This document shows, piece after piece, positions 33,171 through 45,175 of a DNA stretch of 64,000 bases. A program made the translations under genes and the position numbers. Source of the stretch: Streptomyces hygroscopicus (GTDB taxonomy: Bacteria; Actinomycetota; Actinomycetes; Streptomycetales; Streptomycetaceae); assembly GCA_002021875.1 (NCBI GenBank), contig CP018627.1:9424001-9488000 (forward strand), read 5' to 3'. Under the pieces are notes generated by a model. That model saw nothing but the letters and a program-made list of their open reading frames with translations. It was not told the DNA's origin and did no database searches. Within the stretch, counting starts at the first letter, position 1. Each line of letters begins with the position of its first letter.

Positions 33171-33537
33171 GCCTCGTATCTACACTGACCTGGCTGTTCA
33201 TCAACTCCCACCGCTCAATTCATGGCCGACGTTACGGGGCTGGGTGACTTGAAGGATGCTCTGGATTCCGGTGTAACGGAGAAGGTATTCGTGCATCGGG
33301 AAATGCGCTCACTGCTGAGTTCATCGGATTAGGGAGCTCTGTCCGGCCGGCGACGGGGAAAGTCGGATATCGGCGCTCCGTTAGAAATTCCAAGGCCGCT
33401 TCGTTGTCGCATTTGACACTGCGGGTGCCGATAAATCATCCACGCAGGTCGGGAGCCTGATCACGGATCTTCGGCTCTGCTTGTCATTCGCCCCGAGTGC
33501 TTCACCCGCACAGGGCCCGTCGGCATCATGATCTGTC
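33171..33537. other. Intergenic debris
   Basis: Mixed, lower-GC sequence between two transposase remnants. No gene, repeat or regulatory site can be supported. Confidence 0.4.
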
Positions 33538-34320
33538 GTGCTCCTGCGCCTGGCCTACCTCGCCACGACCAACGCCCTGGCGGCCCTACGCCTCCTGCCG
33601 ATGAGCGACAAAGAGCAGGACATCGAGATCCTCGTGCTCCGGCACCAGCTGCTGGTCCTGCAGCGCGCCCCGAGACGGTGTTGCGCCGGCATCGCGAGCT
33701 GCTCAGGCGGCGCCATGCCGCAACCTGCGTATCCAGGCGACGTGGACGCCCGCGCGCCATTCGATCGATCCGCGCCCTGGTCCTGCGCCTGGCCAGGGAG
33801 AAGGCCGCGTGGGGATATCGCCGGATCCACGGCGAGCTCGCCGTGCTGGGGATCACAGTTGCCGCCTCCACCGTCTGGGAGATCCTCCGCGAGCACGGCA
33901 TCCCACGCGCCCCCAAACGGCAGAACACCACCTGGGCCGACTTCCTCCGCAGCCAGGCCAAGGCTCTTCTCGCCTGCGATCTTTTCGAAGTCCGCACGCT
34001 GACGGGGGCACGCCTGTACGTCTTCGCCGTCATCGAGCACACCACCCGTCGCATCCGGGTCCTCGGCGCCACGGCACACCCCACCGCGGAGTGGCTCGTG
34101 CAGCCCGGACGTAACCTCCTCATGGACCTCGATGACGCGAGCAGCAAGGCAAAGTTCCTCATCCGTGACCGCGATTCCAAGTTCACAGCCGCTTTCGACG
34201 CCCTGATGACCGATGCCGGTCTCAAGGCCGTCACCACCGGCATTCGGGTCCACGGATGATCACTCATGGAGCGCTGGATACAGACCTGCCGAAGGGAACT
34301 CCTGGACCGTATTCTCAGAG
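33538..34320 (+). pseudogene. Frameshifted IS transposase (integrase-core type)
   Basis: The gene opens at GTG 33538 with LLRLAYLATTNALAALRLL and QDIEILVLRHQLLVLQ. It loses part of the helix-turn-helix region and shifts frame near 33690, then continues with AAWGYRRIHGELAVLGITV, LLACDLFEVRTLTGARLYV and [19 protein letters not shown]. It shifts again before MERWIQTCRRELLDR. The catalytic residues are present but in separate frames. It is closely related to the copy at 25941-26652. Confidence 0.8.
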
Positions 34321-34395
34321 GGCGTTATGAGTCTTGATGTCCGTTTCATTCTTGGGTTTGGGTGAGGTCCGCTGGTCGAGGGTTCGTTGCTGGTG

Positions 34396-34835
34396 CTATG
34401 GATGGGGCTGGGTGAACAGGCCGGGTTCGGGCTCGGTAAGGATTCCGCGGCTGACCATGCGCTTGAGTTTGGAGCGGATGCCCTCGGTGTTCTCCGGCAG
34501 GATGGGCAGGTCGAGGGCTTCGCACAGGTCGCGGGCCCGCATCGGGCGTCTGGTGTCGGCGAAGGCGGCCAGGATCTGCTGGTAGGCAGGATGGTCCGGC
34601 GTGGCGGGCGGCGGGGCCGCTTCGGCGACGGCGAGGTGGTGGGCGATGCCCAGGAGGGTCTTGCGGGTGATCCGCAGGTTGTCGGTCTCTTCGTCGAGTT
34701 CGCGCAGGTGCGCGGCCAGTTCCTCGATCCGGGTCCGGGTCTGCTCGGCCTGTTCGCTCAGCGCCTGCTCGCGCGTGTCGATCTGTTCCAGGATGGGGTT
34801 GAGCTGCGGGTTGTCGGTCTTGCGTCGCGCCAGGT
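34396..34835 (-). pseudogene. 5'-truncated conserved hypothetical (coiled coil plus winged helix)
   Basis: The frame encodes NPILEQIDTREQALSEQAEQ, a charged coiled-coil segment, and a C-terminal helix-turn-helix-like part (RARDLCEALDLPI, IRSKLKRMVSRGILTEPEPG). I recognise the pattern as a conserved Streptomyces hypothetical, but no function is known. No start codon or ribosome binding site is available, because its 5' end is replaced by the IS5 remnant at about 34835. Confidence 0.6.
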
Positions 34836-35420
34836 GGGGGTGGTGGTGTCGGTCAGCCGGCGCGCTATTACGTCGCTCATCGCCCAGTACCCGCGTGACT
34901 CCGAGGTGGCGGGCCGGTGTTCGTAGTCGCGGACCAGGCGCCGGTGCATGACGAGGGTGCCGAAGGTCTGCTCGACTACCCACCTCTTTGGCTGGGGCAC
35001 GAAGCCGACATCGGCCGGGTTGCGCTCGACGATCTCCACGTCCATGCCGAGCGCGGCACCGTGATCGACGACGGCCCTCTTGAAGCCCTGGTCGACCAGG
35101 GCTTTCTTCGCCGTGTCACTCTGGGCGACCACGCGGTCCAACAGGGCGGTCCCCGCGGCGTTCTCGTGGACCGAGGCCGCCCGCGCCGCTCGGCGGCAGG
35201 TCGTTGGGGAGATGGGCCCACTGACAGCCCGTCCGGCTCTGTGCGTCGATCATGCAGGCCGACGCCTCCGCGTCCCGCCCTTCCTCCTGTCGCCAGAACT
35301 CCCTGAGCAGGCCGTTGAGATGGGCGGCTGTGCTGCTGCGGCGGTACAGCCTGCTGACGACCCGGTGGCCGGAATGGGCCCGGCTCGATTCCGATCAAGG
35401 CGCGTATTCCCATTCGCACC
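34836..35420 (-). pseudogene. IS5-family transposase remnant
   Basis: The C-terminal half is clear: RVVAQSDTAKKALVDQGFKR, NPADVGFVPQPKRWVVEQTF and MHRRLVRDYEHRPATSESR. Upstream, the RYRSSTAAHLNG-type and MIDAQSRTGCQWAHLPN segments are spread over several frames, so it is frameshifted. The N-terminus is lost. Confidence 0.75.
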
Positions 35421-37310: not shown

Positions 37311-38513
37311 TCACGCCAGGCCGTCCACCGTCGTCGCGGTCGGTGTGTCGTGGGCGAAGGGCGTGAAGTGTGCGGGTGTGTGGTCGATGGCCAGGTCGGG
37401 ACACCAGGCGGTGAGGATCTGGGCGCTGCACACGAACAGGCCGTCGGGAAGCCGATCGAGAGGGTGCCAGGCCCACTCGCCGACGCTCTCGTCCGGCTGC
37501 GTGGCCGGCTGTCCCCGCCAGGCGTGGACGAGTGCGCCAACGGTGACCCGCAGCACGCCTTCGACGTGGTCGACGAGCGTTCCCAGGAGCCTGACGTCCC
37601 AGGGACGCGCGATCAGGCCGGTCTCCTCGCCGAGTTCGCGGACCACCGCGGCTTCAAAGGACTCCCCGGCCTCGACAGTCCCGCCGGGCAGTTCGAGGGT
37701 CCCGCGACGATGACGGCCCAATAGGAGTCCCTGCTCGCTCAGGAGGATCGCTCCGACACCGACGGCCGCGTGCGCCACCGGCGGTCTGGTGCTGCGGGGG
37801 CGGCTGGAGACCCGCACCGGCCGGTCGGGCAGGCGGCGGGCGCGGATGAGCTGCTGGATGACCGTTGCGCTCTCGTCAGGGTGATGCAGCAGGTCGATGG
37901 CCTCGACGCGGAAGCCGTACTCGGTGAGCAGGTCCTCCCACAGCGGCGGTGCCAGGACCCACATCCGGGTCGGCAGGGGAGGGTCGTCGCGCAGCAGGAG
38001 CATCTGCTCGCGCGGTGCCACCTCCGTGGACGGGCCACGGCCGTGCAGGTCGGTGTGGAGGAGCGAGAGGATCAGGGGAGCGCCGGGACGCAGTCCGTTG
38101 CGCAGTGCCGGCAGCGCACGGTGCGGGTCGATGAACCCCAGCGTGCCGATGGCGTACGCGGCGTCGAACGGCTCGGCCCCGGCGAGGTACTCGGCTACAT
38201 CTCCTTGGGTGAATTGCACACCCTCAACGTCCGCGTGGCTGGCGGCGGCGCGTTCATGCTGGGTCGGGGACAGCTCGATTCCGGTGACGCGAGCGCCGTG
38301 AGCCTGTACGAGATGCACGGCGTGGTGGCCGGCCCCGGAACCGATGTCCAAGACGCGGCGCCCGGTGATGTCACCAAGGACTTCAGCTCCCGGTCCGACC
38401 CCCTCCCAGGGCGCCCAGGACATCTGGTCGGGAACGGGCGGCGCGTAGGCGCGGGCCAGTTGACGCTGGCCGTAGACCTTCCAGGCTTGGGTGTTGATGT
38501 CCTCGACGGGCAC
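37311..38513 (-). CDS. Fusion of SAM methyltransferase and NUDIX hydrolase
   Basis: A 400-residue bifunctional protein. Residues about 30-235 form a class I methyltransferase with SAM motif VLDIGSGAGHHAVHLVQ and motif II around VTGIELSPTQHE. Residues about 255-385 are a NUDIX domain with a canonical box GGTVEAGESFEAAVVRELGE followed by ETGL, which binds metal and hydrolyses nucleoside-diphosphate-linked substrates. It is the last gene of the minus-strand operon, 28 bases after the ASCH-NUDIX gene. Having three NUDIX proteins in one operon is unusual and suggests handling of a phosphorylated or nucleotidylated intermediate. Confidence 0.85.
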   Translation of the reverse strand: MPVEDINTQAWKVYGQRQLARAYAPPVPDQMSWAPWEGVGPGAEVLGDITGRRVLDIGSGAGHHAVHLVQAHGARVTGIELSPTQHERAAASHADVEGVQFTQGDVAEYLAGAEPFDAAYAIGTLGFIDPHRALPALRNGLRPGAPLILSLLHTDLHGRGPSTEVAPREQMLLLRDDPPLPTRMWVLAPPLWEDLLTEYGFRVEAIDLLHHPDESATVIQQLIRARRLPDRPVRVSSRPRSTRPPVAHAAVGVGAILLSEQGLLLGRHRRGTLELPGGTVEAGESFEAAVVRELGEETGLIARPWDVRLLGTLVDHVEGVLRVTVGALVHAWRGQPATQPDESVGEWAWHPLDRLPDGLFVCSAQILTAWCPDLAIDHTPAHFTPFAHDTPTATTVDGLA

Positions 38514-38541
38514 GGTGCCTCCTCGGTGGGCGCGATGCGGT

Positions 38542-39474
38542 TCAGGTGTGCGTGATGAGGTAGGCGGGGCCCTCGCCGCGCCGGGCTCGTTCGATGGCGT
38601 CGAGACGGACGAAGGCCCGGGGGGCCATCAACTCCTGCCAGCCGGCCATGTCGTGCACGGCCCACATGTCGTGTTCGGCGGGATCGAGGCGGATCCGGTC
38701 GAGCTGGTCCGCGGTCAGCCGGCCTCCGTCGAAGATGAGGCCCACCTTGTTCAGCGGCATGCGGGGCCCGGCGTGCAGGAAGTGCGTCAGGAGCAGCCTC
38801 GGCGGCTCCAGGCCGAGTTCGAGGCCGGTCTCTTCGACCGTTTCGCGCCGGGCGGTCTGGAGTGGGTCCTCTCCTTGGGCGTCGAGGTTGCCGCCCGGGA
38901 GCTGCCAGAGCCGTGAGCCGTAGACCGAGCGCAGCTGGACCGGTCGGTCGTGTTCGTCACGGATGTACAGGCAGCCGTACACCGTGTGGTGGGGGACGGT
39001 CTGCGCGTACCGCGCGGGTGCCATCGGCATGGGGCGGCCGGGCCGGGCAGGGCGGTGGTCGAACTCGAAAGCGAGGGCGCCGAGCGCTTCCTTGGCCGGC
39101 GGATAGATGGCCCGGAGGTTGAGCAGGAGGTCCTCGCGCGATCCGTCCGGGTCGATACGGGTGGCATCCTCCGCACTGAGCAGGTCCTCGAACGAGGCGT
39201 ACGGGGTGATCCGCTTCACGATGATGTCGACTTCCCGGTCGCTTTCCCGGTCCTGCAAGACGATGGCGTCCCCAACCTTGACGGCCTTCTTCTCCGGGTC
39301 GGCGACACGGACCTCGACCGTCTTGCGTCCCGACTCCACCTGCCCGTAGTAGCGGCCCATGAGGTGGAAGTGATGCTGACGCCGCGGCGCGGCTTCCTCC
39401 TCGTCCTGCGTGCTCGACGGCGTGCAGCGCCCTTCCGCGCAGCCGCGGTCCTCTTCGTCCTGCGTGGTGACCAT
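38542..39474 (-). CDS. ASCH-NUDIX protein with unusual acidic/Cys N-terminus
   Basis: A 310-residue protein. Residues about 35-130 are an ASCH domain (LMGRYYGQVESGRKTVEVRV, VKVGDAIVLQDRES), a fold related to PUA that binds RNA or nucleotides. Residues about 145-290 are a NUDIX domain (WQLPGGNLDAQ, ARRETVEETGLEL), whose box carries an extra residue or two before the first Glu. The first 35 residues repeat the motif TQDEE and include a CAEGRC pair, which is not part of either domain. The start ATG 39474 has only a weak AAGGA upstream, and the frame is open to 39693, so the start is uncertain. It sits between two other NUDIX genes in the same operon. Confidence 0.78.
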   Translation of the reverse strand: MVTTQDEEDRGCAEGRCTPSSTQDEEEAAPRRQHHFHLMGRYYGQVESGRKTVEVRVADPEKKAVKVGDAIVLQDRESDREVDIIVKRITPYASFEDLLSAEDATRIDPDGSREDLLLNLRAIYPPAKEALGALAFEFDHRPARPGRPMPMAPARYAQTVPHHTVYGCLYIRDEHDRPVQLRSVYGSRLWQLPGGNLDAQGEDPLQTARRETVEETGLELGLEPPRLLLTHFLHAGPRMPLNKVGLIFDGGRLTADQLDRIRLDPAEHDMWAVHDMAGWQELMAPRAFVRLDAIERARRGEGPAYLITHT

Positions 39475-39569
39475 CTGCGAAGGCACGTCCTTCTGTGTAG
39501 CGGTTCTGACGACTGCGGGCAGCGGAGCCGCCGAGGGTGCGGCCAAGGGGCGTCCGGATAAAAGCCCCG

Positions 39570-40271
39570 TCAGGACCAGCCCATGGGGGCGTAGAGGGAG
39601 CCGCGGGAGATGGCGTCCAAGGCGACCCGTGTGTACTCGACGGTGGGCTCGGGCAAGTCGTCCAGCGGCCAGAAGCGCCATTCGGTGCAGCACTCGGGTT
39701 CGCGTACGACAGGTTCGCCCTCCCAGCGGGAAGGAGCGAAGAACAGCCCGATGCGTGGGATCGTGCTCCCGGGGTCGAGCAGGTCCAGGACGTGGACGAG
39801 CGACAAGTCGCCCTCCGGGATAAGGAGTCCGGTCTCCTCCTCCGCCTCCCGGACCATACAGGTGACGGCGGCTTCCATATCTTCGCGGTGGCCGGCGGGA
39901 AGGTGCCAGGTCGACGGGGCGAAGGCGCTGTTCGGGTGGCGCTTGCCCAAGGGGACGGCCCCGTCGCGGATAAGCACGAGGTGGGCGCCGACGATGCTGC
40001 GGCTGCGGTGGTCGCGAGGCTCGCGGACTTCCACCAGAGGAAGTGCCGCGTCATGGCGCCCACCGAGCTGGTCCGCATTGTGGTGGGCGTGCAGGGCCGC
40101 CGTGCCAGGAATGATCGGCCAGTCGATCGCGACGCGGGTGTGCTTCTTGACGAACACGTGCGCACCGTCGGCCGTGGACGCGGGATCACCGTCGGCCAGG
40201 GGGTGGACAGTGATGCGCGGGCAGAGGGCGGCGCGGTGGTTGCGCTGCCAGTGCAGGACCTGTTCGGCCAT
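39570..40271 (-). CDS. NUDIX hydrolase with N-terminal extension
   Basis: A NUDIX protein of at least 233 residues. The NUDIX domain occupies the last 150 residues: VLIRDGAVPLGKRHP, WHLPAGHREDMEAAV, then REAEEETGLLIPEG, a standard box. The N-terminal 90 residues (HWQRNHRAALCPRITVHPLA) form an extra domain of unknown type. I give ATG 40271 as a safe start, but protein-like sequence in the same frame (VVHGYGPHGHLAAQE) continues upstream to about 40425 without an ATG or GTG. Translation may begin at a rare start, or a frameshift may have removed the true one. It follows the methyltransferase gene directly in the operon. Confidence 0.75.
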   Translation of the reverse strand: MAEQVLHWQRNHRAALCPRITVHPLADGDPASTADGAHVFVKKHTRVAIDWPIIPGTAALHAHHNADQLGGRHDAALPLVEVREPRDHRSRSIVGAHLVLIRDGAVPLGKRHPNSAFAPSTWHLPAGHREDMEAAVTCMVREAEEETGLLIPEGDLSLVHVLDLLDPGSTIPRIGLFFAPSRWEGEPVVREPECCTEWRFWPLDDLPEPTVEYTRVALDAISRGSLYAPMGWS

Positions 40272-40429
40272 CTCCTGTGCAGCCAGGTGGCCGTGGGGCC
40301 CGTAGCCGTGAACGACGAACTCGTACCGGCCGTTGCCGTCGTCTCCATCGCCGATGCGCTTGGTGGCCTGCCGCGCGAGGGAGGTACCGCGGACGATCGC
40401 GGCGCCGGGCCAGTGCTTGGGCGGCGGGT

Positions 40430-41380
40430 TCAGGACCCGTTCTCGCCGTCGGGGTCGACCGACAGGCGGCAGAAGCCGGGCAGTGCGCCGGCCGGATAGA
40501 GGGTGAGGGCGTCGAAGGGTTCCTGGCCGCCGACGGTGACGTGGGTCTGCGTCACCGTCGGTTCGCGGGTGGGGGAGGGGGCGAGCTGGTCGACGGACAG
40601 TGGGGCGCCATCTTCCCAGGAAAGGTGGATGCCAGTGCCGGGGACGGTGCGTCGGATCGCGTTCCGGGCGCCCTCGCCCTGCATGGAGACGAAGCCGCAG
40701 ACGATGAGCGGCTCGTCGCTGTGCAGAGCCCCGTCGCGCTTGCTGAAGCCGATGGCCCAGGCGTATCCGTGCAGGCGGAGCGGGGCGACGAGACGACCGC
40801 CCTCGGCGAGGGCGTCGATCCAGGGAAGGTCCCAGGTGTCGACGGTGACGAGGATGGCGTCGAGGCTGTCCGCCGGCACGATGCCGGTGGGCAGGTGCTC
40901 GGCGTCTGCGGTGACCACGTGGACGTGGTCGTATCCGGTCTGGGCCAGGAAGCGGGTGGCGCGGTCGGTGACGGCCGGGTCGATGTCGAGGGTGGTGACA
41001 TGGCCGGTGGGGCCGACGAGTTCGGCGATGAGGGCGGCGTTGTAGCCGCCGGAGCCGATCTCCAGGACACGGTGGCCGGGCTGGACGCGGGCGGCTTCGA
41101 GCATGTCGGCCTGCAGCCAGGGCGCGGAGACGGAGCCGGTGATGCGGCCCTCGTCGCTGTGGCGGGTGGCGACGATGTCGTTGGCGTACGCCTTGTGGAC
41201 CGGTACTTCGGGTACGAAGGCGTGCCGGGGCACTGTGCGCAGGGCTCGGTCGACCGCGGGGGTGCGGATGTGTCCGGCAGCGGCGAGTTGGCCGGCCAGC
41301 TGGTGGCGCGGGGCGGTGGCCTCGTCGAGGTCCGTGGTGGGGGATGTCGTCACGGCGGGCCTTTCGGTCGAGCGGGTCAT
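40430..41380 (-). CDS. PCMT-type O-methyltransferase (FxLD/grasp peptide-maturation type)
   Basis: A 316-residue methyltransferase of the protein-L-isoaspartate methyltransferase (PCMT) family. It has the N-terminal AVDRALRTVPRHAFVPEVPV, SVSAPWLQADMLEAARV, SAM motif RVLEIGSGGYNAALIAELVG and LDIDPAVTD. Residues after about 220 form the extra C-terminal region seen in PCMT homologues that work on ribosomal peptides, such as the FxLD lanthipeptide and ATP-grasp systems, where they methylate Asp and give aspartimide. Housekeeping PCMT lacks this part. Its ATG overlaps the ABC transporter stop (ATGA), so it belongs to the exporter operon. The assignment to peptide maturation is inference from family and context. 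Confidence 0.82.
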   Translation of the reverse strand: MTRSTERPAVTTSPTTDLDEATAPRHQLAGQLAAAGHIRTPAVDRALRTVPRHAFVPEVPVHKAYANDIVATRHSDEGRITGSVSAPWLQADMLEAARVQPGHRVLEIGSGGYNAALIAELVGPTGHVTTLDIDPAVTDRATRFLAQTGYDHVHVVTADAEHLPTGIVPADSLDAILVTVDTWDLPWIDALAEGGRLVAPLRLHGYAWAIGFSKRDGALHSDEPLIVCGFVSMQGEGARNAIRRTVPGTGIHLSWEDGAPLSVDQLAPSPTREPTVTQTHVTVGGQEPFDALTLYPAGALPGFCRLSVDPDGENGS

Positions 41381-43368
41381 GCGGGGTCTGAGACGGTCGG
41401 TGTGGTGGGGTTCGGGATGGTCGCGGTGGGGGCGTACTGGGCTGCCTGGGCGTCGAACATGGCGGCGTACCGGCCGCGTGCGGCGATGAGTTCGTCGTGG
41501 GTGCCGTGCTCGGTGAGGTGCCCGTTGTTGAGGACGTAGATGTGGTCGGCGTGGCGGACACCGGACATGCGGTGGGTGACCAGGACGACGGCCCGGTTCG
41601 GCGCGGCGAGGCGGCGGATGCGGTCGAAGGCTTCGATCTCGGCTTCCGGATCGAGCGCGGACGTTGGCTCATCCACGATGAGGACGCCGTCCGCCTGTGA
41701 TGTTGAACTACGCCAGTGCGTGCGGGCCAGACCCACTTTCTGCCATTCGCCGCCGGACAGTTCGATGGCGCCGCGGAACATGCGGGCCAGCAGACTGCGC
41801 AGGCCGTCGGGGAGTTTGGCGATGACGGGGCCGGCGACGGCGTAGTCGACCGAGGGCTCCAGGTCCTGGTCTGTTGCGGGGTGAGCGGGGCGGCCGAGGC
41901 GAATGTTCATCGCGGCGGTCAGGGGCCAGCGCTGAAAGTCTTGGGTGAGCAGGGAGACTCGCTCGAAGACCTGAGCGCGGTCGAGGTCGGTGAGGTCCGC
42001 CTCGCCCCAGCGCAGAGTGCCGGTATGGGGCAGCAGCATGCCCGACACGATCTTCATCAGCGTGCTCTTGCCGGAGCCGTTCTCGCCCACCACCGCGGTG
42101 ACCGACCCCATTGGCAGCGTCAGCGACACTCCTTCCAGGGCCGCGGTGTCACGGTCGGGATAGCGGTAGGTGACTCGGTCCAGGACGATCTCCTTGACCC
42201 GTTCAGGAACGGGCGCGCCGCCTGCGGGCAGCGTCCGCCGGCCGGCCTGGGTGAGGAAGCGACCGTGATCGCGGACATAGAGGCTTTCCTCGTGCAGTTG
42301 GTTGATGTTCATGACGAGGGCGCCCAGGCTCGCGGAGCCGGTGCGTACCGCGACCACGGCGGTCCCGGCGACGGCGAGGCTCATGTGCCCGGCCATGATC
42401 AGCCAGAACATGGCTCCGTAGGTTGCGGCCATCGCCAGGCCGGACAGTGCGGAGGCCACCCATTCGGTCAGGGCTTTGCTGGAGGCGAGGCGTTCCTGTT
42501 CGGCTTCGGCGCTTTCGGCCATGCGCTCGTAGCGGCTGAGGAGGAAGGTGCCGACGGCGTGGAGGCGTACCTCCTGGGCGGCGGTGCGTTCGGTGAGCAG
42601 GTTGCCGATGAGGCGGCTGGCGCGCACGTGCTCGATCCAGCTCATCACGGACACGTACCGTTCCTGGGCCACGCGCATGGCGCCCCAGCCGCGCGGGGCG
42701 GCGATGAGGATCAGCATGGGCAACAGGACGGGGTGGAGTACGGCGAGGACGCCGGCGGTGGTGATCAGGGAGATGAGGCCGTTCAGCGCGGCGACGCAGG
42801 AGCTGATCATGCGGCGGGCTGAACTGGGGCCGTGCTGGGCGATGTCGACAAGCCGCCGGAAGTCGGGGTCGTCGATGGCCTCCAGTTCGACGCCGGCTGC
42901 GGCGGCCAGGTACTGGGTGGTGGCGATCCGCTCGACCTTGGGCTCCAGGCGACCTGCGCGGGAGGTGGACCAGGCCGAGAGGGCGGAGTTGATGACGCCG
43001 ATGGCGGCGGCGGCCAGCAGGCCGGGTAACAGGGCGTGCAGCCGCTCAGCAGCGCTGCCGCTCCCGGCGAGCAGCGCGTGCATGACGGCATTGACGGCGA
43101 GCAGGCCGGCTGCTGCGGCCATGCCCTGACCGATCTCGCTGACTCCCACGGCGAGCAGGGCACGCCGGTCTGCCTGCCACGCCATGCGCAGCGTGGCGCC
43201 GAGGAGCGCGGGCATGGAGCGCAGCGCGGACATCATGGTCAGGTCCAAGGTGGCGTGCTCGTGCTGGGACCATCCCATGTCGTAGCGCAGGGGCCCGCCG
43301 AACAGCTCTTGTTCGGCGTCGGAGACATGAGGGTCGGCCATCGTGACCGGGCCGAAGAATCTCTTCAC
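41377..43368 (-). CDS. ABC exporter (fused permease-ATPase)
   Basis: A 663-residue half-transporter. The transmembrane domain covers about 60-330 with six hydrophobic segments. The ATPase covers about 365-610: Walker A VVGENGSGKSTLMKI, Q-loop in LLTQDFQRW, signature IELSGGEWQKVGLA, Walker B VLIVDEPTSALD and switch His in VTHRMSG. Fused exporters of this kind move peptides, lipids or small molecules outwards and act as homodimers. The start is GTG 43368, overlapping the kinase stop (GTGA); the frame open to 43572 lies inside the kinase gene. No C39 peptidase domain is fused, so any leader would need another protease. It is the probable exporter of the operon's product. Confidence 0.9.
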   Translation of the reverse strand: MKRFFGPVTMADPHVSDAEQELFGGPLRYDMGWSQHEHATLDLTMMSALRSMPALLGATLRMAWQADRRALLAVGVSEIGQGMAAAAGLLAVNAVMHALLAGSGSAAERLHALLPGLLAAAAIGVINSALSAWSTSRAGRLEPKVERIATTQYLAAAAGVELEAIDDPDFRRLVDIAQHGPSSARRMISSCVAALNGLISLITTAGVLAVLHPVLLPMLILIAAPRGWGAMRVAQERYVSVMSWIEHVRASRLIGNLLTERTAAQEVRLHAVGTFLLSRYERMAESAEAEQERLASSKALTEWVASALSGLAMAATYGAMFWLIMAGHMSLAVAGTAVVAVRTGSASLGALVMNINQLHEESLYVRDHGRFLTQAGRRTLPAGGAPVPERVKEIVLDRVTYRYPDRDTAALEGVSLTLPMGSVTAVVGENGSGKSTLMKIVSGMLLPHTGTLRWGEADLTDLDRAQVFERVSLLTQDFQRWPLTAAMNIRLGRPAHPATDQDLEPSVDYAVAGPVIAKLPDGLRSLLARMFRGAIELSGGEWQKVGLARTHWRSSTSQADGVLIVDEPTSALDPEAEIEAFDRIRRLAAPNRAVVLVTHRMSGVRHADHIYVLNNGHLTEHGTHDELIAARGRYAAMFDAQAAQYAPTATIPNPTTPTVSDPA

Positions 43369-44117
43369 CGGGCGCCTCCCGTGGGCCAGTTCAGTGCCCG
43401 GTAGGACGGGCCGTGGGTGAGCATGCGGAAGATCGCGGCCGTGTAGGGGTGGCAATCCGGCGGGGGCTCCTCGGTGACGAGCGGGCCCGGTTCGTTGCGC
43501 TCGAAGTCGATCAATGCGCAGCGGCTGCCGTTCCACAGCAGATGGCGCTCCCAGAAGTCCCCGTGCCGCCACCCGGCCAGTAGCGGTCCGCAGCCGGAGA
43601 GCGTGCTCACCAGATGCCGCAGCGTGTCGGCTTCCGCGGCGGACAGGTGGTCACCGGCCTCCGCGGGGTGCTTGTCCAGGCCGGCCATAGTGTTCTCGAC
43701 GATTCTGGCGGCTTCAGACCGGACCAGGGGACCGGTCATGGCGTCGTGGAAGCGGCGCAGGAGCTGGTCGGCTTGCCGGTGGGCAACGCGGCGGCGCGCG
43801 GGTGACTCCTCTTCCTTTAACGGCTCGCCTTCCACCTCGGTATGGATCAGGGCCAGCAGCTCCGCGGAACTGTCGTGCAGGATCGGGGCGTTGCCGCGGC
43901 CGAGGTGTGGAACGGCCACCCGGTAGGCACAGGTCTCGCGCGTATGCAGGATCGGTTTGGGCGCCACTTTCACGTAGTGGACGCCGGTGCGTCCGGTCAC
44001 CCTCCACACCTGGGAGTTGTCGCGGGCGTGCCAAGCGCCCCGCATACAGTCCAAGGGGCCCGGCACGCTCGCCACCCAGGTGGCGAGGGAGGAGGGGAGA
44101 CGAGTGGATTCCGTCAT
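43365..44117 (-). CDS. APH-fold phosphotransferase
   Basis: A 250-residue protein of the aminoglycoside phosphotransferase/choline kinase fold. The nucleotide end reads HYVKVAPKPILHTRETCAYR; the Lys probably binds ATP. The catalytic region is GWRHGDFWERHLLW with Asp in HGD, followed by metal-binding Asp in ALIDFERNEPG. The usual Asn in HGDxxxxN is replaced, so activity needs testing. Such kinases occur in antibiotic self-resistance and as RiPP modification enzymes, for example in class V lanthipeptides. It overlaps the exporter gene downstream. Its own ATG overlaps the stop of a peptide-like ORF upstream (ATGA), making it at least the second cistron of the operon. Confidence 0.82.
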   Translation of the reverse strand: MTESTRLPSSLATWVASVPGPLDCMRGAWHARDNSQVWRVTGRTGVHYVKVAPKPILHTRETCAYRVAVPHLGRGNAPILHDSSAELLALIHTEVEGEPLKEEESPARRRVAHRQADQLLRRFHDAMTGPLVRSEAARIVENTMAGLDKHPAEAGDHLSAAEADTLRHLVSTLSGCGPLLAGWRHGDFWERHLLWNGSRCALIDFERNEPGPLVTEEPPPDCHPYTAAIFRMLTHGPSYRALNWPTGGAR

Positions 44118-44323
44118 GCCAGGTACCTCGTATCCGGGCGTGACTCCTCGGCGAGCAGGGCGGTGCGGCCGGAGGCGATGTGAGGGTTGGTGCCCGAGGA
44201 GACGGCGGTATTTTCGAACGCGGGATGAACGAGCGCGGGGGCGGCGTACGGGATGCAGGGGGACTCCTCAGGGCGAGATGCGGACAGGTGATCGGGTAAC
44301 GGAGGTTCTGCTGTCGCCGTAAC
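44114..44323 (-). CDS. Candidate small peptide ORF upstream of the kinase gene
   Basis: A frame of about 69 codons ends in a TGA that overlaps the ATG of the kinase gene by the ATGA rule, as in the rest of this operon. The translation is protein-like: EESPCIPYAAPALVHPAFEN, then TAVSSGTNPHIASGRTALLA, ending RPDTRYLA. It has one Cys, several Ser/Thr and one Asp. No ATG, GTG or TTG exists in frame back to the preceding stop near 44420. The best natural beginning (VTATAEPPLP) falls on GTT 44323, and an in-frame CTG lies at 44287. It may be a precursor peptide with a mutated or rare start, or the remnant of a longer gene. No family is recognised. Confidence 0.4.
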   Translation of the reverse strand, partial: VTATAEPPLPDHLSASRPEESPCIPYAAPALVHPAFENTAVSSGTNPHIASGRTALLAEESRPDTRYLA

Positions 44324-44420
44324 GGGTGGGGGCGGGCGAAATCTAGAACCCGAATTCGAATACCGGGGTCCTCTCCTTGTGTGGCCGAGTGTGGCGGTCC
44401 GTGATGCTGTGTTCGATCAC

Positions 44421-45175
44421 TCATGTGGGTTGCGGTAACTCCTCCGGGGGATTGCCCGGTACCGCCTTGTCGTCCCGCAGTAGTCGCCTCAGTTCGGTTT
44501 CGCCGAGGGGGACGGCCTTGGACAGAGACTGCCGGTAGTCCGCGGGCAAGGTGCCGGCCCCGAGACCCGCAGCGTGATCGCCGTGCTGAGCGCGTCTGCC
44601 CGCTCGGCACTCAGGGCTGCTCGGGCGGCGGGGGGCAGGACCTCGTGTGCGGCGTAGGCGCCGAGGCGGGCCACCTCGGAGACGGCTTCGAGCAGCGGGC
44701 CCGCGTACGGCCCGTCGGGGTTCAGCTCCAGGGCGGCCGGGCCCGCCCGGGTCTGGAACACGGCGGTCGACGAATCGGGACGGGTGAGGAGCGCGGCGGC
44801 TTCGCTCAGGGTGGGGTCGAGGCCGGCCCGGGGAACCGGTACGTCGATGGGACGGCAGTGGGCGCGCAGGATCTGGCCGATGGGGCCTCCCAGGGTTCCG
44901 TGGGCTGGGTGGCGTCGATCATGTCGCGGGCCCGCTGGTCGAGTCCCTGCTCCATCAGGGACATGATCTTGATCTGGCGGCCGTCGAGGAGCCGGTTGCC
45001 GATGCCACGGTGCTTGGCCGTGGCATCGGCTGTGTCGGTCCACCTGCCGACGCGTGCGAGGGCGCGGGCGCCGTCCACGAGCAGGGTGACCCACAGGGCA
45101 AGGAACGCGCCCGTATCCGAAGCGAGAGAGGCATCCGCTGGGGAGGCCGACCGCTTCCAGCAGCAGCTTGATCAG
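44421..45175 (-). pseudogene. Frameshifted conserved actinobacterial protein
   Basis: Protein-like stretches in different minus-strand frames join end to end: LLLEAVGLPS, TGAFLALWVTLLVDGARALA, RQIKIMSLMEQGLDQRARDM, then ILRAHCRPIDVPVPRAGLDP, ALLTRPDSSTAVFQTRAG, and finally LPADYRQSLSKAVPLGETEL. At least two frameshifts separate them. The whole would be about 240 residues, without a family that I can name. It lies just upstream of the modification operon and may have been its regulator, but that is speculation. Confidence 0.5.

Follow-up and report, generated by a model that had tools for sequence, protein, structure and literature searches.

Locus and gene content

The 64,000-nucleotide stretch of the Streptomyces hygroscopicus genome analysed here (the window, at 9.42-9.49 Mb of a single 12.01-Mb contig) contains, on the minus strand at approximately 37311-44117, six open reading frames (ORFs) that all point in one direction and that, in a Pfam scan, match APH, ABC_tran, PCMT, NUDIX, ASCH plus NUDIX, and methyltransferase plus NUDIX, respectively. 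As an initial annotation made from the same DNA had described, the first three overlap, with a GTGA at 43365-43368 that combines the stop of the kinase with the start of the ABC exporter, and an ATGA at 41377-41380 that joins the exporter to the PCMT in the same manner. Upstream of the kinase, we found a conserved leader and the remains of a further gene, which we denote gene4. The features are as follows:

44421..45100, minus strand: gene4 remnant, C-terminal part, broken frame (match and alignment to gene4 of locus L155)
44115..44453, minus strand: conserved leader, with 5' bases overlapping the gene4 tail (10-locus alignment)
43365..44117, minus strand: truncated APH-fold kinase followed in frame by the tail of a lost NUDIX protein (partial PF01636; comparison with loci L042 and L050)
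41377..43368, minus strand: ABC exporter, 663 aa, full length (PF00005)
40430..41380, minus strand: catalytic part of an FxLD-type peptide aspartyl O-methyltransferase, PAMT (TIGR04364 positions 1-291; clade)
39570..40427, minus strand: methyltransferase C-terminal domain, in another frame, followed by one NUDIX domain (TIGR04364 323-394, PF00293)
38542..39474, minus strand: ASCH-NUDIX protein, full length, start set by likeness to L048 (PF04266, PF00293)
37311..38513, minus strand: class I methyltransferase-NUDIX protein, full length (PF13649, PF00293)

A split methyltransferase, a truncated kinase and three apparently intact genes

The PCMT ORF scores 310.8 bits against the model of FxLD methyltransferases (TIGR04364), three times the 104.8 bits of the best model of repair-type protein isoaspartyl methyltransferases (PIMT), and thus belongs, as the initial annotation had proposed, to the type that modifies ribosomally synthesized and post-translationally modified peptides (RiPPs). 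The match covers only positions 1-291 and falls below the whole-protein cut-off of 320 bits; positions 323-394 are matched (42.8 bits), in a different frame, by the N-terminal part of the next ORF, and a genome-wide search delimits the two pieces as 1-298 and 290-394. What had been taken for an unknown extension of that NUDIX ORF is, judging by this match, the methyltransferase's own C-terminal domain. In an alignment with five relatives, the frame change comes down to a one-base difference in a short G-run just 5' of the PCMT stop, and the relatives maintain a single uninterrupted frame across the site. In the nearest named relative, Streptomyces olivochromogenes (L148), a 722-aa ORF encodes a PAMT-NUDIX-NUDIX protein, and in L050, too, this protein is encoded in one ORF; compared with L148, about 357 bases around the first NUDIX domain, as computed from match coordinates, are gone from the window. 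The other FxLD methyltransferase of this genome, at 243158, scores 441.2 bits and is the sole one over the TIGR04364 cut-off.

The kinase is damaged as well. It consists of residues 1 to approximately 216 of an APH kinase of about 290 aa, to which the last 33 or so residues of a NUDIX protein are attached, the two being separate genes in L042 and L050. Active APH-fold kinases possess the catalytic loop HxDxxxxN and a complete C-lobe, whereas in the window, about 75 C-terminal residues are absent and the loop reads HGDFWERH, against HGDFWERN in L042 and L050, so that the catalytic Asn is replaced by His. The kinase, as inspection of these residues suggests, is probably inactive. In L148, 29 codons of the kinase are left.

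Only the exporter, the ASCH-NUDIX protein and the methyltransferase-NUDIX protein look intact in the alignments. The exporter is 90-95% identical to those of L039-L043, and on the window branch, amino-acid-changing codon changes are fewer than silent ones in all seven comparisons; the ASCH-NUDIX protein shows 77-85% identity to eight relatives, and the methyltransferase-NUDIX protein 82-89% identity to its nine best matches. Decay extends beyond the window, with stops within the ASCH-NUDIX matches of genomes G202 and G245 and within several methyltransferase-NUDIX matches. In a sample of 296 genomes from across the class, representing 114 genera, full-length ASCH-NUDIX genes (E 1e-60) were detected in three, the window's own among them, and these three belong to a single genus. 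The genome of the window has another ASCH-NUDIX gene, with 70% identity, at a distant site (G000:C1:346648-347499, L068); the stretch fetched around it has no matching methyltransferase beside this gene.

The Nudix box has the form GX5EX7REUXEEXGU, and in the translations, it is canonical in the NUDIX domains linked to the PAMT and to the class I methyltransferase, whereas in the ASCH-NUDIX protein, the first spacer is longer by one residue. All three proteins match Pfam NUDIX over the cut-off, in agreement with the initial count of three, one of which is to be redescribed as a methyltransferase C-terminal domain plus one NUDIX domain. Structure prediction yielded mean pLDDT (predicted local distance difference test) values of 35 for ASCH-NUDIX (9 rows) and 42 for PAMT-NUDIX-NUDIX (7 rows). 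Sequence searches of PDB returned generic NUDIX, methyltransferase and PIMT matches together with two small ASCH-type proteins, and no match for the kinase.

The gene4 remnant and the leader

In its intact form, gene4 (for example, L043:5461-6582 and L155:6034-7179) encodes a protein of approximately 370-380 aa without a match in Pfam or NCBIfam and almost constantly accompanies FxLD lanthipeptide clusters. It was present in 16 of 20 FxLD loci found via the precursor family, a set picked by hand from the family list, with earlier-studied loci excluded, and thus not random; in relatives, it follows LanB, LanC and a methyltransferase. The window retains gene4 from about codon 155 of a gene for some 380 aa. 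When 44421-45100 is aligned with the 3' part of the L155 gene, 543 of 705 columns are identical, the gaps in the window sequence span 14, 1, 3, 1 and 6 columns, and the tail match has an E-value of 1.3e-20. A query with the gene4 tail recovered 15-75 codons of it, immediately 5' of the leader, in 12 of 21 sequences, several of which come from the same or near-identical assemblies (the window, L039, L040, L041, L042, L084, L086, L148, L149, L150, L152 and L153). Our reading of these tails is that the lanthipeptide half of the locus was apparently lost in more than one lineage.

The leader itself (44115-44453), roughly 340 bases in length and situated 5' of the kinase, shows conservation across ten loci and can be read as two tiny ORFs, P1 and P2. 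It has no match in Rfam at E 0.1, and its consensus folds, computed without a shuffled control, are shallow only.

What the window lacks

No LanB (PF04738) was found near the window, the genome's LanB matches being located at 0.24 and 2.99 Mb, and no FxLD precursor in the genome exceeds the family cut-off, the best candidate reaching 17.5 bits beside the LanB at 2.99 Mb. The precursor, LanB and LanC that, next to the methyltransferase, define a class I (FxLD) lanthipeptide cluster are thus missing from the window. ATP-grasp and radical enzymes are absent from the Pfam matches of the six ORFs, beyond which no search was aimed at them. The PADLOC matches are generic, linking the exporter to ATPase models (best, mad3, 2.3e-28), the methyltransferase domains to mad2 and NUDIX to PDC-S07; none is convincing, and an antiphage defense system was rejected as an explanation of the operon. 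To the left of the operon, 33528-35141 shows weak, sub-cut-off matches to transposase-type domains, probably remnants of insertion sequences.

Orthologous loci connect the operon to FxLD lanthipeptide clusters

Orthologs of the methyltransferase with 66-82% identity were identified in 14 genomes beside the window's own, among 295 searched, with a fragment in G225 (82% over residues 83-213) excluded. Around them, the ABC exporter is present in all 14 loci, ASCH-NUDIX in nine, a separate methyltransferase-NUDIX gene in eight, LanB/LanC in six and gene4 in five. Among 16 named loci with 69-84% identity, from a search that kept the best 80 of 417 relatives, the corresponding numbers are 15 for the exporter, ten each for ASCH-NUDIX and methyltransferase-NUDIX, nine for gene4 and eight for LanB/LanC. 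The two samples partly comprise the same assemblies and hence are not independent; both are anchored on the methyltransferase, so that the co-occurrence counts are conditional on it. Furthermore, at the 60-bit cut-off used for neighbours, paralogous NUDIX and ABC proteins are admitted (the clustered counts given below for 38 loci are stricter), and some of the fetched stretches stop at contig ends, so LanB/LanC could sit further out. With these qualifications, the genes do co-occur elsewhere, as the proposal of the initial annotation required, and its statement that no lanthionine synthetase is present holds for the window copy but not for many of the orthologous loci.

The most complete named relative seen is the locus of Streptomyces sp. 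NRRL S-37 (L155), from which the kinase is absent. The first half consists of a precursor, LanB, LanC, a fusion of a LanB C-terminal domain with a first FxLD methyltransferase, gene4 and the leader; this is followed by a NUDIX gene, the ABC exporter, a second FxLD methyltransferase, another NUDIX gene and a triple NUDIX gene, after which come an AAA/VanX-like gene, ASCH-NUDIX and methyltransferase-NUDIX. The same type of gene order, with some genes missing, is observed in L154-L159. Family searches confirmed LanB, LanC, the LanB C-terminal domain and the FxLD precursor in the loci that carry LanB/LanC; the precursor of L046 matches TIGR04363, and the precursor cores contain TGDGC in L050 and TGDTC in L043. 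These are close to TxDGC, a motif that section 2.3 of PMC10787088 reports for lanthipeptides linked to PAMTs, and we counted them in favour of the lanthipeptide link.

The NUDIX-linked clade and its stand-alone loci

A quick tree of 94 sequences of the PCMT type, built without bootstrap and with long-branch rows flagged, places the window copy in a clade of 42 rows with a Shimodaira-Hasegawa-like approximate likelihood ratio (SH-aLRT) support of 99. This clade is separate from the lanthipeptide-linked rows beside it and from those four PIMT-like homologs of the window's own genome that the tree includes. A Nudix box lies within the methyltransferase ORF in 28 of the 42 rows of this clade, against none of the 52 others, and Pfam NUDIX is detected in 33 of the 42 ORFs (with L148 standing in for the window copy). 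Because the genes recur together and the PCMT belongs to a separate clade, neither of the two outcomes that the initial annotation had named as speaking against its proposal was encountered.

Of the 41 other loci of the clade, six have LanB/LanC in the stretch fetched around them and 35 do not. Gene clustering in 38 clade loci found the exporter in 24, a triple-NUDIX gene in 21, the kinase in 16, a separate methyltransferase-NUDIX gene in nine, a VanX-like gene in eight and ASCH-NUDIX in eight, with a shorter related family in six more. In stand-alone loci such as L098, L117, L121 and L127, the NUDIX genes are accompanied by a second protein of the PCMT type, an additional methyltransferase and a long fusion of methyltransferase, NUDIX and PAMT. 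Most of these loci also possess the exporter, ASCH-NUDIX, a VanX-like peptidase and a gene for a kinase-NUDIX protein, and LanB/LanC do not occur in their fetched stretches. Domains that are joined in one protein in some genomes are encoded by neighbouring genes in others, which supports a functional link between them. Among the best 80 of 417 loci, 24 carry a cassette NUDIX gene, and all 24 are titled Streptomyces.

A shared precursor was not found, given that each small-ORF family is confined to at most two of the 28 stand-alone loci compared, and a precursor in the stand-alone cassettes was rejected on this ground. In L127, the APH kinase and a NUDIX domain form a single 481-aa protein (L127:12640-14085, minus strand), and the same locus encodes the second, distinct PCMT-like protein (L127:14948-16120, minus strand, approximately 390 aa; the copy that was scanned), which contains a motif like LPREVLMPQAYVRR; proteins with similar starts occur in the stand-alone cassettes L098, L117, L121 and L122. 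In the S. brasiliensis group (L058:11381-13217, L041:1-2806), genes for PTPS, radical SAM and GTP cyclohydrolase I are located upstream of the module, along with weakly nucleoside-phosphorylase-like and thymidylate-kinase-like genes, an arrangement that resembles a join to a 7-deazaguanine-type pathway. A cytidylyltransferase gene is present in L048 and L052.

A probable severed and decaying cluster tail

The gene content, gene order, damage and relationships described above lead us to a scenario in which a class I lanthipeptide cluster of the FxLD type was severed and the operon is what remains of its downstream part, separated from the precursor, LanB and LanC genes and now in decay in this strain. 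We consider this scenario likely, because the methyltransferase is split, the kinase is truncated, a gene4 remnant marks the upstream edge and, in some relatives, the module adjoins lanthipeptide clusters. We infer that the joined cluster was the older state. In such a cluster, going by what is known of the protein families, LanB and LanC would form lanthionine rings, the first methyltransferase would convert a core Asp to aspartimide and isoaspartate, and the ABC exporter would secrete the product, whereas the second, NUDIX-linked methyltransferase with its NUDIX, ASCH and kinase partners could constitute a separable tailoring and export module.

Several observations weigh against this scenario. 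LanB/LanC are absent from the fetched stretch in 8 of the 14 closest loci and in the large majority of the clade, so that the module does not require a lanthipeptide, and the joining, rather than the separation, could be the derived state; conversely, among the 20 FxLD loci sampled via the precursor, just three contain genes of the NUDIX set, which argues against a tight bond with lanthipeptides. The gene4 tail has no match in 9 of the 21 sequences (L048, L050, L051, L052, L079, L082, L085, L160 and L163), and the shortest tails, of 15-18 codons, could persist as regulatory DNA. The frame change, located in a short G-run, could be a sequencing error, and testing the methyltransferase branch for relaxed constraint gave p = 0.003 in one of seven comparisons and p values from 0.14 to 0.67 in the other six, for which reason we do not rely on it.

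The alternative that deserves the most attention concerns the module rather than its damaged copy. It might be a pathway in its own right, with FxLD clusters only sometimes adjacent, in which NUDIX-fused methyltransferases, ASCH-NUDIX and APH-NUDIX proteins would modify a substrate that bears a nucleotide, and the ABC protein would export the resulting nucleotide- or nucleoside-linked product. We regard this as possible, with the balance tilting against it. This would fit the predominance of clade loci without LanB/LanC, the dearth of shared small ORFs, the fusion of NUDIX to such different partners (the PAMT, APH in L127, ASCH and a methyltransferase), the cytidylyltransferases, and the PTPS, radical SAM, GTP cyclohydrolase I and thymidylate-kinase-like genes of the S. 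brasiliensis-type loci; the latter are near-identical to one another, and nucleotide-related neighbours are confined to a few lineages. Nor does any nucleotidyltransferase or glycosyltransferase family, among the families that could be named, reach at least 4 of the 38 clade loci, and with generic PDB matches, the substrates of the NUDIX domains are not readable from sequence. This possibility is partly compatible with a severed cluster tail, so the probabilities that we attach to the readings do not sum to one. Improbable, in our estimate, is a working, if unusual, tailoring system in this strain that would act in trans on peptides of the LanB loci at 0.24 or 2.99 Mb: three full-length genes, a constrained exporter, two further LanB loci and an FxLD methyltransferase over the cut-off speak for it, against which stand the split methyltransferase, the truncated kinase with its replaced Asn, the loss of several NUDIX genes and a genome-wide best precursor score of 17.5 bits.

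Two further explanations appear highly improbable. The initial annotation had advised looking for a conserved small ORF upstream, and a new RiPP with P1 or P2, directly 5' of the kinase, as its precursor would account for the conservation of the leader in ten loci and for the ATGA overlap between P2 and the start of the kinase, which is seen in the window and in most relatives. The region is indeed conserved, but in a non-coding manner: a tally of variable columns over the three codon positions, made for six loci, gave 14/11/9 in P1 and 19/14/17 in P2, with no enrichment at third positions. Moreover, L050 has lost the start of P1, L086 and the window have lost that of P2, and both frames are shifted in the window. 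Given this pattern and the lack of an Rfam match, P1 and P2 were rejected as precursors. Likewise, both PCMT and NUDIX are families that include repair and house-cleaning enzymes, and the operon might be imagined as a repair set, with the PCMT directed at isoaspartate and NUDIX at damaged nucleotides. The threefold higher score with the FxLD model, the separation from the genome's four PIMT-like homologs in the tree (which may or may not include a repair enzyme), the clustering of an exporter in 24 of 38 clade loci and the patchy distribution, with close orthologs in 15 of 295 genomes including the window's, all argue against this.

The NUDIX-PAMT module

The NUDIX-PAMT module is the new part of the picture; going by gene order, we describe FxLD lanthipeptide clusters in a variant form to which this module is joined. 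As to its chemistry, nucleotide-linked tailoring and export might be entertained as a weakly favoured first guess, to which we give about one chance in three; it is prompted by the existence of stand-alone loci, by the recurrent fusions with NUDIX and, in a few lineages, by nucleotide-related neighbours. A more specific scenario, which we rate as rather unlikely, would be an undescribed Streptomyces pathway in which the NUDIX-fused enzymes act on a substrate carried on a nucleotide diphosphate, precursor-free in most genomes and joined to FxLD clusters in some, where a peptide-nucleotide hybrid could result. Each NUDIX domain would then recognise, or finally remove, the nucleotide handle, and the fused partners would be the PAMT, the second methyltransferase, the APH kinase and the ASCH protein.

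PAMTs convert Asp, via a methyl ester and aspartimide, to isoaspartate (PMC10787088), and enzymes that install aspartimide or isoaspartate serve as hooks for the discovery of new RiPPs. In the survey by Lee et al. (2023), which covered 9408 PAMTs, the contexts distinguished were lanthipeptide, lasso, graspetide, LAP, pamtide, FHA and rSAM, and no clue was reported for 3653 of the enzymes; the word NUDIX does not occur in the main text of that study (PMC10787088), and neither NUDIX nor FxLD occurs in the main text of a 2026 review (PMC13001092). Our literature searches found no description of a NUDIX-PAMT association. One block of PAMTs, from Streptomyces, thus gains a genomic identity, being fused to or located beside NUDIX domains. 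As the window operon is a damaged copy, it is a poor choice for expression, and the loci of Streptomyces sp. NRRL S-37, S. olivochromogenes and S. brasiliensis can be named as candidates.

Comparison with known systems

The kinases of class V lanthipeptides, LanK, are APH-like and have LanX and LanY as partners, so that an APH-fold kinase next to a peptide pathway is a shared feature; the window kinase differs in being truncated and, in a stand-alone locus, its counterpart is fused to NUDIX. With the PAMT/pamtide systems, as described in PMC10787088, the operon shares a PCMT-like enzyme with a RiPP-type C-terminal domain, but the two-gene unit of a small Asp-containing precursor and a PAMT is not seen here, no pamtide-like precursor having been found. 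Although the window differs from FxLD-type class I lanthipeptide clusters (TIGR04363, TIGR04364, LanB, LanC) in that it is devoid of a precursor, LanB and LanC and its methyltransferase is broken and belongs to the NUDIX-linked clade, it shares with them the methyltransferase family and gene4, and in part of its relatives, the module lies next to precursor, LanB and LanC.

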